Below, piece by piece: positions 155 to 13,068 of a stretch of DNA of 36,871 bases. The stretch spans positions 1 to 36,871 of the forward strand of contig NZ_REBW01000061.1 of assembly GCF_007692535.1 (NCBI RefSeq), read 5' to 3'. How positions within the stretch are numbered: the stretch's first letter is position 1; every line of letters begins with the position of its first letter. The position numbers were made by a program, and so were the translations under genes. This DNA comes from Thioalkalivibrio sp. Lineage in GTDB: Bacteria > Pseudomonadota > Gammaproteobacteria > Ectothiorhodospirales > Ectothiorhodospiraceae. The notes beneath the pieces were generated by a model. The model searched no databases. It was given only the letters and a program-made list of their open reading frames with translations, and was not told the origin of the DNA.

Positions 155-1573
155 CTAGGGGAGGGTCTTGAACGCTTCCAGGGCGGCTTCGCGGCTGGTT
201 TTCAGGTCGACGACGGGGTCGGGGTAGCCGGGGGGCTTGCGGTCGCTTTGCCAGGGGGCGTGTATCTTCGCGTCGGGCATGGCTTCGAGTTCGGGCACGT
301 AGCGGCGCACGTAGGTGCCGTCCGTGTCGAAGCGCTGGCCCTGAAGCACGGGGTTGAAAATGCGGAAGTAGGGTGCGGCGTCGGCACCGCTGCCAGCGGC
401 CCACTGCCAGCCAAGGGTGTTGGAGGCCAGGTCTGCATCGACCAGGGTGTCCCAGAACCAGCGGGCGCCGTGCAGCCAGTGCAGGCGCAGGTTCTTGGTG
501 AGCAGCGAGGCGACGATCATTCGGGTGCGGTTGTGCATCCACCCCGTCTGCCAGAGTTCGCGCATGCCGGCATCGACGATCGGGATGCCCGTGCGACCCT
601 GTTGCCAGGCCTGCAGGTCCTGCTTCGATTCGCGCCAGGGGAAGTGCTGAAAACGTGGGTTCAGGGGTTCTTCGGTGGTCTGCGGGAAATGGTAGATCAG
701 GTGATGGCCGAACTCGCGCCAGCCGAGTTCGCGCACGAAATGCTCCGCGCCGCCGGCGTCCAGGTCCAGGCCCGCCTCGCGCAGGTTCCAGACGATCTGC
801 CGCGGTGAGATCTCGCCGAAATGCAGGTGCGGCGACAGCCGCGAAGTGCCGTCGCGGCCGGGCAGTTCGCGGCCTTTGGCATAGGCGCGGACCGAGTCCT
901 CGACAAAGGATTGCAGGCGTTCCAGGGCGCCCGCCTCTCCGGGTGTCCAGTGCTCGGCCAGGCCTTGGTCCCAACGGATGCGTGGCAGGAGATCGAGGGC
1001 CTCCAGATGTTCGGATCGCGGCCAGTCCTCGCCAGCGCGTGCCGCCGCACCCGGCCCAGGCAGGTGTGGCGGCACGGTCCCGGGGGCGGTGTCGATGCCG
1101 GCCTTCCGACAGGCCTTCCAGAACGGCGAGAACACCTTGTACGGGTCACCGCTACCCGTGGCGATCTGCCATGGCTCGTGCAGCAGAGCGGCATTGAAGC
1201 TGGTGGCCGTGAGGCCGGCTTCGCGCAGGGCCTTCTTGATCTCCTGGTCGCGGCGGATCACCGCCGGTTCGTATAGGCGGTTCCAGAAGACCGCATCGGC
1301 GCCGGTTTCGCGCGCCAGATCCAGCAGTGTCGCAAGGCTGGCTCCGCGGCGCAGGATCAGACGGCTTCCGGCCTGCGCCAGGGCCTCGTCCATCCGCGCA
1401 AGGCTGTGGTGCAGCCACCAGTTCGAGGCGGCACCGGGCTGCCACGGTGCCTCTTCTTCCGGCGCATGGATGAACACCGGGATCACCGGCAGGCCGCGCT
1501 CGGCGGCCGCGCTCAGCGCCGGCTGATCGGCCAGGCGCAGATCGCGGCGGAGCCAAACCAACGTCGCAGCCAT
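155..1573 (-). CDS. phrB: Deoxyribodipyrimidine (CPD class I) photolyase
   Basis: Translation from MAATLVWLRRDLRLADQPAL, with DGTSRLSPHLHFGEISPRQI, WQQGRTGIPIVDAGMRELWQTGWMHNRTRMIVASLLTK and DADLASNTLGWQWAAGSGADAAPYFRIFNP, typical of class I photolyases. Start set at 1573, where it overlaps the upstream SDR stop (TGATG). Confidence 0.94.
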   Translation of the reverse strand: MAATLVWLRRDLRLADQPALSAAAERGLPVIPVFIHAPEEEAPWQPGAASNWWLHHSLARMDEALAQAGSRLILRRGASLATLLDLARETGADAVFWNRLYEPAVIRRDQEIKKALREAGLTATSFNAALLHEPWQIATGSGDPYKVFSPFWKACRKAGIDTAPGTVPPHLPGPGAAARAGEDWPRSEHLEALDLLPRIRWDQGLAEHWTPGEAGALERLQSFVEDSVRAYAKGRELPGRDGTSRLSPHLHFGEISPRQIVWNLREAGLDLDAGGAEHFVRELGWREFGHHLIYHFPQTTEEPLNPRFQHFPWRESKQDLQAWQQGRTGIPIVDAGMRELWQTGWMHNRTRMIVASLLTKNLRLHWLHGARWFWDTLVDADLASNTLGWQWAAGSGADAAPYFRIFNPVLQGQRFDTDGTYVRRYVPELEAMPDAKIHAPWQSDRKPPGYPDPVVDLKTSREAALEAFKTLP

Positions 1574-2343
1574 CAGCGCAGACGTACCATCGGGCGCACG
1601 GCGGTGAAGCCGCCGTCCACCGGCAGGATCTGACCCGTGATCCAACCGGCCTCGTCCGACAGAAGCCATGCGGCGGCACGGGCCTGGTCCTCGGCCTGGG
1701 CGTAGCGGCCCAGTGGATACTGGGCGGTGATCTGCTCCTCTGCGCCCTTGGTGGCAAAAAGGCGCTCTGTGGCACCCGTGCGGGTCAGGCCCGGAGCAAT
1801 GCCGTTGATACGCAAGCCCTGTGCGGCATAGGTGGCCGCCGTGGCGGGGATGAGGCTGGCGACCGCCCCCTTGGCTGCCGCGATCGCCTCGTGGTTCGAC
1901 ACGCCAATCAGCGAGACGACGGAGCTGAACAGGACTGCGGCGCCGGCGGAATCGCTGGCCTTGACCCGCCCCTGGACCCATGCGCGCAGGGTGAAGAAGG
2001 CGCTGTCCAGGTTCGCGGCCAGGCAATCCCGGTACTGGGCGTCGGTGGTGCGGTGCAGGGGCGCGAGCAGCGTGGTTCCCGCGCAGTGTGCCAGGTGCGT
2101 CGGCGCCTCGCCGAGATGTTCGGTCGCCTCGGCGAAGGCCGCCTGTGCGCCTTCCGGAAGGCTCACGTCGGCTTCGATGGCGACGGCTTGCAGGCCTTTG
2201 GGCAGATCCGCCATGACCGCATCGAGGCGGCTTCGGTCACGGCCGACGAGGGCTACGTGGTAGGCCGTGGGTTCGATGGTATGCAACAGCGCACGGCCCA
2301 CTCCTCCGGTGGCGCCGGTGACGACGAGCGAGTTCGGGCGCAT
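1573..2343 (-). CDS. SDR family NAD(P)-dependent oxidoreductase
   Basis: TGATGGVGRA cofactor motif, LAHCAGTT, later AKGAV segment, C-terminal GQILPVDGGFTA; start/stop overlap with the photolyase. Confidence 0.9.
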   Translation of the reverse strand: MRPNSLVVTGATGGVGRALLHTIEPTAYHVALVGRDRSRLDAVMADLPKGLQAVAIEADVSLPEGAQAAFAEATEHLGEAPTHLAHCAGTTLLAPLHRTTDAQYRDCLAANLDSAFFTLRAWVQGRVKASDSAGAAVLFSSVVSLIGVSNHEAIAAAKGAVASLIPATAATYAAQGLRINGIAPGLTRTGATERLFATKGAEEQITAQYPLGRYAQAEDQARAAAWLLSDEAGWITGQILPVDGGFTAVRPMVRLR

Positions 2344-2426: not shown

Positions 2427-3425
2427 TCAGTGTGCTCGGGGATCGAGCAGTTGCCGGCTTAGCGTGTCGGCTGCCTGCAGCGGATCGGCAGGCAGCGTGA
2501 CCAGTTGGCGCGGGGTGTCCAGCCCGGCCAGCTCGGCAGCCCCGCTACCGGAAAGGTAGGCGGGCACTCCGTCTTCGGACAGCAGTCGGCGCAGGCGTTC
2601 GATTTCGTGGTCGTGGACCGAGCGTGCCGGGGTATGGACGACGAGCGCTGGCGAATGCAGGTGCCCGGTCAGCGCCTGCATTGCGGGCGCGGTGATGACG
2701 TCCTGCAGCGGCAGGAGCCGCAGACCCTGCCGCGCGCTGGCCAGCAGCACCAGCATGCCGCCGATGCGCCGATGGCCGGCACCCAGGACCACGCAGGGGC
2801 TGGGCGGTCCTTCGCAGAGCAGGAGCGCCGAGCGCAGTTGTTCGGTCAGGGACGACAGCGCCCAGGAGGCGAAAACCGCCAGACGAGCCTCGACAGCCGG
2901 GTCATGGCGTGCCTGGTCGCGAAGCGCGGTGTACGTCTCGAGAAAGGCTTTTTCGTGCACGCCCTCCCAGCCGTGGCGCATCACCAATCGGGCATGGGCG
3001 CGCTCGAGTTCCACCGTGCTGAGTTCCCGTGTGGCCTCCAGCAGTGCCTCCGAGAGCGGGTCGAGCACGTGCGGCGCGAGGCCACCCTGGACGGCTGGTG
3101 CGCGCTCGTCCGGCCGCGACGTCCCGGGGGCGCCCAGCGAGTCGTGGCCGTTCGGGCCGGGCCCGTGCAGGTCGTGCTGCAGGACCCGCCCCACTTGCGA
3201 GACGGCCACGCCTTCGTCGAGCAGCGACAAGATACGCCGGATGCGGGCAATATCGTCTGCACTGTAGAGCCGGTGCCCCTTGGGGGTCCGCAGCGGCTGG
3301 ATCAGCCCGTAGCGGCGCTCCCACGCACGCAGGGTGACCGGATTGATCCCGGTCTCTGCGCAGACGTGGCGGATCGGGAACAATCCGTCCGTTGGTGGGA
3401 TATCGCTGTCAGTAGGGTGAGGCAT
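2427..3425 (-). CDS. MerR family transcriptional regulator with C-terminal B12-binding-like domain (LitR/CarH/BluR-like)
   Basis: MerR HTH: FPIRHVCAETGINPVTLRAWERRYGLIQPLRTPKGHRLYSADDIARIRRI. C-terminal CVVLGAGHRRIGGMLVLLASARQGLRLLPL resembles a cobalamin-binding fold. ATG at 3425 preferred over the listed TTG at 3440. Confidence 0.88.
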   Translation of the reverse strand: MPHPTDSDIPPTDGLFPIRHVCAETGINPVTLRAWERRYGLIQPLRTPKGHRLYSADDIARIRRILSLLDEGVAVSQVGRVLQHDLHGPGPNGHDSLGAPGTSRPDERAPAVQGGLAPHVLDPLSEALLEATRELSTVELERAHARLVMRHGWEGVHEKAFLETYTALRDQARHDPAVEARLAVFASWALSSLTEQLRSALLLCEGPPSPCVVLGAGHRRIGGMLVLLASARQGLRLLPLQDVITAPAMQALTGHLHSPALVVHTPARSVHDHEIERLRRLLSEDGVPAYLSGSGAAELAGLDTPRQLVTLPADPLQAADTLSRQLLDPRAH

Positions 3426-3455
3426 ACAAGGATTGTACAATATCTGTACACAAAT
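3423..3455. promoter_or_regulatory. Candidate operator: three 11-bp direct repeats CATACAAGGAT / TGTACAATATC / TGTACACAAAT
   Basis: CATACA at 3423, TGTACA at 3434 and 3445, an exact 11-bp step. Overlaps the regulator start codon and lies between divergent genes. Confidence 0.55.
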
Positions 3456-3589
3456 GCCACGCCTCTTTCCAACTTATTCGCACGACAGTGTCGACAACGG
3501 TCCGGTCTGGTGGCCCCTATCTGGATCGAGGGGAATTTTTCCACTGCTGCGGGAATCCATCAACCATGGGCAACGACAAAGAGCAAGCA

Positions 3590-5467
3590 ATGTCGATCAT
3601 CACCGGGGTATCGGGTACACGCGGCGCTGGCTGGGGCGCCCTCGCGGGCCTGGCCCTGACCGGCGTCTTCTGGTTGGGTACGGCGCAGGTGCTGCTGGCG
3701 ACCGAATCACGCTCTGCCATGGCGGACAGCATTTCGCCCTACCTGCAGCTGCACGCCGACGACCCCGTGCAGTGGCGTGACTGGAGTCCTGCGCTGCTGG
3801 AGGAGGCGCGGGCCACGGGGCGCCCGCTGCTGATCTCCAGCGGCTATTACGCCTGCCATTGGTGCCACGTGATGCAGGAGGAGAGCTTCAAGGACGCGGG
3901 CATCGCGGAGCGTCTGAACCGCGACTACATCCCGGTGAAGGTCGACCGCGAGCTGAACGCCGCGCTGGACCAGTACCTCCTCGAATTCCTTCGCGCCACC
4001 CGGGGCAGCGCCGGCTGGCCGCTGAACGTGGTGGTCCTTCCCTCCGGTGACGCCCTGGCCGGCGTCGTCTACGCGCCGCGGGATGACTTCGCCAGGTTCC
4101 TCGACGGCATCACGGCACGCCTGCGTCAGGACGGCGACGCGTTGACGGCGCTGGCCCGGGAGGGGCGGCTGGAACTGACCGCCCGGCTGCGCGAGGGCGA
4201 ACGGCCGCTGTCTGAAGCACGGGCGGCGCGCCTGCCACAGGTTCTTTGGGCGGCGATGGAGCGTGACGCCGACTTCCTCGGGGGTGGGTTTGGTGACCAG
4301 TCGAAGTTTCCGCGTGCCCCGGCACTGGACGCTCTGCTGCAGGCACGGGAGCAGGGTCGGGCGCCGGAGTGGGCGGACGAGTTTCTGGAAGTGACCCTGG
4401 AGGAGATGGCGCGGGCGGGGCTGCGGGACGTGATCGGCGGAGGGTTCTTCCGGTACTCGGAGACGCCGGACTGGGGCCGGCCGCACTTCGAGATCATGCT
4501 GGACGACCAGGCCCAGCTGGCGCGGGTGTACCTGCGCGCGGGGCGGCAGTTCGATCGCCCGGACTGGACCGAGGTCGGCCGCGGGACGCTGGCCTTCGTG
4601 CTGCGCGAGATGGCGCTCGAGGACGCAGCGGTGTTCGCGTCGGGGCTGTCGGCGCTGGACGACGCGGGCCGCGAGGGGGGCGTGTATCTCTGGACGCCGG
4701 GGGAGGTGGATGACGCCCTGCAGGGGCATCCGCATCCGGATCTGGTCCGGGCCTGGTTCCGGCTGGAGGGCGCGCCGACCTTTGAAGGCCGCTTCCTGCC
4801 CCAGCATCAGGAATCCCTTGCTGCCCTGGCGGAGCGTTTCGGGCTGCCGCTGAACGAAGCCCGTGAGCAGGTCGAGCAGGGCCGGCAGGCGCTGCTGCAA
4901 TATCGGCAGGCCCGCGGGGTGCCGCGGGATGAAAAGCAGTTGACCGGTCTGCACGGCTTGCTGCTGTCCGCATTTGCGGAACTGCACGACGATCCCGCGA
5001 TCGGCGCGGCAGGCGAGGAGCTGGCCGCACGGCTTCGTTCGCTGGCGGCAAGGCCCGGAGAACTGTCGCAATTGCTGGATCTGCCTCGGGACGTTGCGGG
5101 CGGGGCGGATCTTTCCGATTACGCCTACCTGGCGCAGGGGCTGCACGACTGGGCCGTGGCCACCGGAACCGGCGGTGACCGGACCGTGACCGGATTGCTG
5201 GAGGTCGCGTGGGCGGATTTCACCGATGCCGACGGCTGGCGCGCGGCGCGGGAACAGCCCTTGCCGGGGATGGTGGCGCAGCGTTTCCACACCGCCGTCC
5301 ACAATCCGTCGCCGACCAGCCTGATCCTGACGCTGAGCCGGGAATACGTTGGCGACAGCGAGACACTGTCCGAGCGGCTGGCCGACTTCGACCTGCGACC
5401 CGGCCGGGGCGTCGAGACCAGCCCGCAGGAGCACGCGCAACTGATCCTCCTGCTGACCCGCGGCTGA
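3590..5467 (+). CDS. Exported or membrane-anchored DUF255 thioredoxin-fold protein (YyaL/SPATA20-like)
   Basis: N-terminal hydrophobic segment WGALAGLALTGVFWLGTAQVLLA, then SISPYLQLHADDPVQWRDW...GRPLLISSGYYACHWCHVMQEESFKD with the CHWCHVM motif, and QSKFPRAPALDALL. Confidence 0.85.
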   Translation: MSIITGVSGTRGAGWGALAGLALTGVFWLGTAQVLLATESRSAMADSISPYLQLHADDPVQWRDWSPALLEEARATGRPLLISSGYYACHWCHVMQEESFKDAGIAERLNRDYIPVKVDRELNAALDQYLLEFLRATRGSAGWPLNVVVLPSGDALAGVVYAPRDDFARFLDGITARLRQDGDALTALAREGRLELTARLREGERPLSEARAARLPQVLWAAMERDADFLGGGFGDQSKFPRAPALDALLQAREQGRAPEWADEFLEVTLEEMARAGLRDVIGGGFFRYSETPDWGRPHFEIMLDDQAQLARVYLRAGRQFDRPDWTEVGRGTLAFVLREMALEDAAVFASGLSALDDAGREGGVYLWTPGEVDDALQGHPHPDLVRAWFRLEGAPTFEGRFLPQHQESLAALAERFGLPLNEAREQVEQGRQALLQYRQARGVPRDEKQLTGLHGLLLSAFAELHDDPAIGAAGEELAARLRSLAARPGELSQLLDLPRDVAGGADLSDYAYLAQGLHDWAVATGTGGDRTVTGLLEVAWADFTDADGWRAAREQPLPGMVAQRFHTAVHNPSPTSLILTLSREYVGDSETLSERLADFDLRPGRGVETSPQEHAQLILLLTRG

Positions 5468-12489: not shown

Positions 12490-13068
12490 TCAGAGGCGCA
12501 CCAGGCCGGAGAAGCCCATGAAGGCCAGGGACATCAGTCCGGCCGTGATCATCGCGATCGCGCTGCCGCGGAAGGGCACCGGCACGTCCGCGGCGGCGAT
12601 GCGCTCACGGATCGCCGAGAACAGGATCAGCACGATCGAGAAACCGACCGCGGCGCCGAAGCCGTACAGGGCCGACTCGACGAACCCGTGCGCTTCCTGC
12701 ACGTTCAGCAGCGCCACCCCGAGCACGGCGCAGTTGGTGGTGATCAGTGGCAGGAAGATCCCCAGCACGTTGTACAGCAGGGGACTGGTCTTGTGCACCA
12801 CCATCTCGGTGAACTGCACCACCGCGGCAATGACCAGGATGAAGGCGATGGTGCGCAGGTATTCGAGGCCGAGCGGAGTCAGCAGATACTCGTTGATCAG
12901 GTAGCTGCTGACCGCGGACAGGGTCAGCACGAAGGTCGTCGCCAGACCCATGCCGGTGGCGGTCTCGACCTTGCGCGACACGCCCATGAAGGGACACAGG
13001 CCGAGGAACTTCACCAGGACGAAGTTGTTGACCAGAATCGTGCTGATAAGGATCAGGGCGTATTCCAC
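12490..13068 (-). CDS. rnfA: Ion-translocating oxidoreductase complex subunit A
   Basis: [52 protein letters not shown] start at 13068 preferred over the longer ORF. Confidence 0.95.

Follow-up and report, generated by a model that had tools for sequence, protein, structure and literature searches.

What binds the repeated TGTACA words in front of a MerR-like regulator gene of this soda-lake Thioalkalivibrio sp., and which molecule connects that promoter to light? The window (the whole stretch of 36,871 nucleotides analysed here) encodes a 332-aa regulator (2427..3425, minus strand) in which a MerR helix-turn-helix (HTH) is joined to a CarH-like helical cap and a Rossmann domain. Downstream on the same strand follow a short-chain dehydrogenase (SDR; 1573..2343, Pfam adh_short_C2 2.2e-42) and a phrB-like DNA photolyase (155..1573, Pfam FAD_binding_7 and DNA_photolyase) that overlaps the SDR end. 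The regulator-SDR synteny is kept in loci L004-L006, L010 and L100, and in the majority of the loci checked a photolyase is adjacent or close to the regulator. On the plus strand, a thioredoxin-like DUF255 gene (3488..5467, Pfam Thioredox_DsbH 4e-41; start uncertain, possibly the ATG at 3590) runs divergently, and is conserved as a neighbour of the regulator, in which role alone we consider it. The first-pass annotation had located CATACA, TGTACA and TGTACA at 3423, 3434 and 3445, which is where they start, and had read them as three 11-bp repeats bound by a light- and B12-dependent CarH/LitR-type repressor at its own promoter. Our comparison points to a modified answer: the hexamers are likely the autoregulatory operator of a MerR/CarH-family repressor which is probably B12-free and to which light would be relayed by a short LOV protein, encoded on contig C52.

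Hexamer 1 (TGTACA, 3445..3450, minus strand) and hexamer 2 (TGTACA, 3434..3439, minus strand) form a pair that is both rare and conserved. The proposed genome scan for exact TGTACA-N5-TGTACA found one copy only in 3.13 Mb, at the regulator promoter, against none for the reversed-pattern control and an order-1 Markov expectation of 6e-5 per window, or about 0.005 per genome. All 29 orthologous regulator promoters score at least 11/12 at spacing 11 (shuffles about 0), and eight out of eight further genomes show the same spacing, giving 37/37; among the other spacings from 6 to 25, this score was reached in the 29 promoters 13 times at 22, which is simply two units, and once at 21. The annotation had itself named a lack of repeats in orthologous promoters as an objection to its reading, and given their presence in all 37 promoters read this objection falls away. 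The word TGTACA as such is over-represented in the window (8 copies versus 1.4 expected), with single copies at 12771, 13589, 14601, 23712, 24255 and 25492 that look like coding sequence.

The third word did not survive this comparison. CATACA (3423..3428; TGTATG on the minus strand) matches TGTACA at 4/6 positions and contains the start codon, 3423-3425 being CAT; TGTATG occurs at this place only in the window and in the orthologue of L004, whose protein is 89% identical, whereas CCAATG, GCCATG, CTCATG and other words take its place in the remaining orthologues. We therefore rejected it as an operator unit, given its overlap with the start codon and its lack of conservation beyond L004; it is probably a start-codon coincidence. 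Three genuine 11-bp units do exist in relatives, to judge from their aligned promoters, displaced upstream relative to the set first proposed: in the sister clade L013-L026 (for example TTGTACA-TGCGC-TGTATA-AATGT-CGTACAATTATTTCATG) an extra unit lies upstream of the pair and the array ends at the -10.

The pair is embedded in a putative sigma-70-like promoter on the minus strand, GTGGCA-N17-TACAAT, with no other promoter-like match beside it in 3350-3650 (a mean of 0.2 in shuffles). Its -35 (GTGGCA, 4/6, 3455..3460) and -10 (TACAAT, 3432..3437) are separated by a 17-nt spacer, with hexamer 1 inside this spacer and hexamer 2 across the -10, which lies 6 nt from the ATG. Between the end of the operator and the ATG lie 8 bp, so that the site, earlier said to overlap the start codon, overlaps the -10 and stops just short of the codon itself. 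Of the 29 orthologous promoters, 24 have a gap of 6 nt between -10 and ATG and five a gap of 7 nt; the eight additional ones again have 6-7 nt (37/37). With a gap this constant, the predicted first transcribed nucleotide is the A of the ATG or its neighbour, which suggests that the regulator mRNA is leaderless throughout the family, in contrast to the gene behind the second operator described below, which has an ordinary leader. A TTG start at 3440, giving the 337-aa mechanical ORF, was rejected in favour of the ATG at 3425, which in every orthologue lies at the same 6-7 nt from the -10 and is where the aligned proteins start. Chance, or a TACAAT kept just as a -10 box, is scarcely credible, for although hexamer 2 does overlap the -10, neither would account for the invariant 11-bp distance of hexamer 1 upstream of it in 37/37 promoters or for a three-unit array in a different promoter.

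This other array, TTTACA-GGTAT-TGTACA-ACTCG-TGTATAAAT, is the one other strong cluster in the genome (search with up to 3 mismatches; G000:C245:4427-4458, L054). The array itself, at C245:4429-4456, consists of three 11-bp units of the form TTTACA-N5-TGTACA-N5-TGTATA and is shared by two divergent operons, one with glutathione-peroxidase-like (GPx), DUF3429 and folE genes and the other with FAD oxidoreductase, DUF1365 and cyclopropane-synthase-like (Cfa) genes; its first unit may serve as a -35 and its last as an extended -10. As TGTACA is its own reverse complement, direct and inverted arrangements are indistinguishable from the cores, and the outer units here (TTTACA, and TGTATA, the reverse complement of TATACA) are equally compatible with an inverted arrangement. 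Weaker motif matches (3 mismatches) number 23 per strand versus 9 and 6 in controls and are in part at control level; several of them are the two known arrays in other registers. The genes at the second array are homologues of the light regulon of class II LitR (PplR/PmlR) in Pseudomonas, where light-inducible regions include phrB, SDR, FAD oxidoreductase, UfaM and folE (PMC9758184). Together with SDR-phrB downstream of the regulator they match that regulon (phrB, SDR, FAD oxidoreductase, Cfa/UfaM-like, folE) in gene content and through a shared motif, which is consistent with the light-response context proposed at first pass.

The second array also follows the regulator across genomes. It is kept in all 36 regulator-bearing genomes whose promoter was read (L058-L086 and eight more), and it is also present in G028, a 77%-complete MAG with no regulator seen. 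On the other hand, two genomes about 99% complete (G003, G007) keep the FAD gene and lack both the regulator, for which the search returned just short generic MerR matches (E 9e-6 and 9e-5), and an intact second array; in G003 an apparent decayed array, TTTGCA-N5-TGCATA-N5-GGTATA, can be read by eye, with the -10 kept. This co-loss gives a Fisher p=0.0014, a value that ignores relatedness, with both negatives coming from one genus. Separately, L212, L213, L214 and L215 (G016, G017, G022) hold further tandem TGTACA arrays, whose surroundings include a flagellin-adjacent region and genes resembling those for a PAS/chemoreceptor, CheY and pntB, and some species may have a larger regulon. One could argue from these extra copies near chemotaxis, flagellin-adjacent and pntB-like genes, and from the fact that binding of the hexamers by the regulator is a sequence-based prediction, that the site belongs to a different transcription factor. 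We regard this as quite improbable: in genomes without the regulator the array is gone or decayed, and the hexamers lie both in front of the regulator gene itself and at the gene set known from class II LitR. The comparison supports the autoregulation suggested at first pass, as well as a CarH/LitR-type regulator and a CarH-like 11-bp operator.

The family assignment of the regulator is supported by both sequence and predicted structure. Its closest named relatives, at 89% to 50% identity, belong to isolates and MAGs of Thioalkalivibrio, followed by Ectothiorhodospira; its HTH matches Pfam MerR_1 (1.5e-15) and is homologous to that of CarH (phmmer versus 5c8d, 8e-15, residues 17-81). An AlphaFold model built with 29 orthologues (pLDDT 82) shows the HTH, a four-helix cap and an alternating alpha/beta domain, and its top Foldseek matches are all T. 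thermophilus CarH (TtCarH), with a TMt of up to 0.78 and an rmsd of 3.5 A to crystal structures of the TtCarH cobalamin-binding domain. Neither the Wx9EH motif of the cap nor the lower-ligand His (E/DxHxxG) was found in the alignment with CarH or in that of the 29 orthologues. A GxGH[RQ][RQ]xxG motif is conserved in one clade near the place of the lower-ligand His, but its spacing is wrong, and GH[RQ][RQ] is absent in the Ectothiorhodospira regulators. Given a kept CarH fold and missing B12 motifs, the modelled regulator has the fold of CarH without its ligand site. On the basis of these motifs we reject sensing of vitamin B12, an ability that the protein has apparently lost.

This bears directly on the control by B12 or AdoCbl that the first-pass annotation had assumed, and for which we find no support. 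In a class I CarH/LitR system, an AdoCbl-bound tetramer would bind all three 11-bp repeats in darkness and be split directly by light. The homologous HTH, the C-terminal CarH fold, the promoter overlap and the CarH-type 11-bp spacing (PMC9304148) all suit such a mechanism. Nevertheless, it is improbable here, since Wx9EH and the lower-ligand His are missing in 29 orthologues, the NCBIfam CarH model is far from passed (60.2 bits versus a cut-off of 400) and the third repeat is unconserved. No second CarH was seen in the genome.

If the repressor does not sense light, another protein probably does, and the genome encodes two short LOV proteins, on contigs C52 and C156. The C52 LOV scores 175-204 bits against the top PDB cluster of short LOVs (including 3sw1), with the next protein at 119. 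We take 3sw1 to be a Pseudomonas putida short LOV and the entries of this top cluster to be Pseudomonas short LOVs, which makes the C52 protein an apparent orthologue of Pseudomonas SB-LOV (PpSB/PmSB-LOV). It is preceded by a Tll0287-like gene (L088:2012-3289, G000:C52), an arrangement conserved in L090, L094, L210, L211 and L238-L241. Among 13 genomes read, eight carry a tandem TGTACA-N5-TGTAYA (at least 11/12) upstream of this operon; the repeats are degenerate (10/12) in the window's genome and its sister, and absent in G013, G043 and G044. Of 38 regulator-positive genomes, 33 have a C52-type LOV; the four near-complete regulator-negative ones all lack it. The C156 LOV (L055:4261-4722, G000:C156) carries GHNCRFLQ and is 48% identical to the C52 LOV. 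We favour it less as the regulator's partner, because its type is absent in the regulator-positive G013 and G014 and present in the regulator-negative G003, and keep it as a candidate.

The five regulator-positive genomes without a C52-type LOV are all of Ectothiorhodospira type (G001, G004, G005, G006, G010): G001, G004 and G010 have another short LOV type and a LOV kinase, and G005 and G006 have the regulator and its operators with LOV proteins of multi-domain type only. As formulated, therefore, the LOV step cannot hold universally. The regulator might then bind the repeats and respond to a signal other than a short LOV, for example a different ligand held in the degenerate B12 pocket, or light sensed intrinsically, as reported for class III LitR. 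We consider this unlikely though worth serious attention, as the Rossmann domain is kept and conserved (with GxGH[RQ][RQ]xxG in one clade) and as G005 and G006 have no short LOV beside their regulator and operators. The co-occurrence with short LOVs, the operator common to the LOV operon in many species and an experimental precedent in P. mendocina (PMC9758184) speak against it.

Under the preferred reading, that of a B12-free repressor informed by the C52 short LOV, the repressor would lie in the dark on tandem 11-bp units over the -35/-10 and block RNA polymerase. Its targets would be its own apparently leaderless promoter (regulator-SDR-phrB) and the three-unit operator between GPx-DUF3429-folE and FAD oxidoreductase-DUF1365-Cfa. 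As it has no B12-binding residues, light would most likely be sensed by the C52 LOV, a separate blue-light protein on which the repressor probably depends. The blue-light state of this LOV would bind the repressor and release it from DNA, by analogy with Pseudomonas mendocina, for which experiments showed that the lit PmSB-LOV binds the repressor PmlR2 and releases DNA (PMC9758184).

Comparison with known systems, with LitR classes defined after PMC9758184, places this one between two of them. Like class II LitR/short LOV pairs (PmlR2/PmSB-LOV; PplR1-3 of P. putida), it combines a B12-less CarH/LitR repressor with a TGTACA core (PMC9758184), an overlapping gene set (phrB, SDR, FAD oxidoreductase, Cfa/UfaM-like, folE) and a related short LOV in the genome. 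Class II operators in Pseudomonas, however, are TRTACA-N12-TGTAYA with a spacing of 18 bp (PMC9758184), whereas here the spacing is 11 bp (N5) in 37/37; sites of the N12 type showed no enrichment in the window's genome (2 versus 6 in the control). Here, in addition, the LOV gene sits in the Tll0287-LOV pair away from the regulator, the regulator promoter is apparently leaderless and the Rossmann fold is retained in the model, whereas class II proteins are described as having kept just the helix bundle (PMC9758184). Class I CarH (T. thermophilus, Bacillus megaterium; PMC9304148, PDB 5c8d/5c8e) shares the HTH, cap and Rossmann fold as well as operators of 11-bp units (PMC9304148), here predicted as tandem TnnACA-type units over promoter elements and numbering three at the second operator. 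It differs from our system, in which the B12-ligand motifs are missing, the regulator promoter has two clear units and the targets are photolyase, folE and FAD oxidoreductase instead of carotenoid genes. The system is thus a CarH/LitR-family variant that belongs to neither class I nor class II, because one tested defining feature of each fails to appear (the B12 motifs and the N12 spacing, respectively).

Other relatives broaden this picture. In Myxococcus xanthus, CarA is a CarH paralogue that works independently of B12 and is inactivated by a partner protein made or activated in light (PMC9304148), as we infer for the regulator here; the CarA partner, CarS, is no photoreceptor (PMC9304148), whereas the partner proposed here would be a LOV protein. 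MerR/ChrR of Vibrio cholerae likewise places a blue-light photo-oxidative response under MerR-family control (PMC5241685). Among Halomonas/Vreelandella homologues (L114, L123, L126-L178), 17 out of 20 promoters that were read carry TGTACC-N14-TGTACA with a 20-bp period, and for the Pseudomonas homologues returned, the region upstream of the gene contained no pair of this kind; both observations come from single-word scans of 220 bp and serve as a lead only.

Overall, our analysis offers a concrete light-response circuit for haloalkaliphilic sulfur oxidisers. We put forward, as a proposal whose chances are evenly balanced, that Ectothiorhodospiraceae carry a CarH-fold repressor intermediate between classes I and II, which has lost B12, kept its tandem 11-bp operators, passed sensing to a LOV protein that in many species is itself a member of the regulon, and is made from a leaderless autoregulated transcript. 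Here CarH-like 11-bp operators persist without the B12 motifs, and across lineages the spacing varies (11 bp here, 18 bp in Pseudomonas, mostly 20 bp upstream of the Halomonas homologues). The loss of the regulator together with the apparent decay of its operator in G003 represents a natural experiment. The system provides a route to study the conversion of a B12 photoreceptor into a repressor under LOV control.
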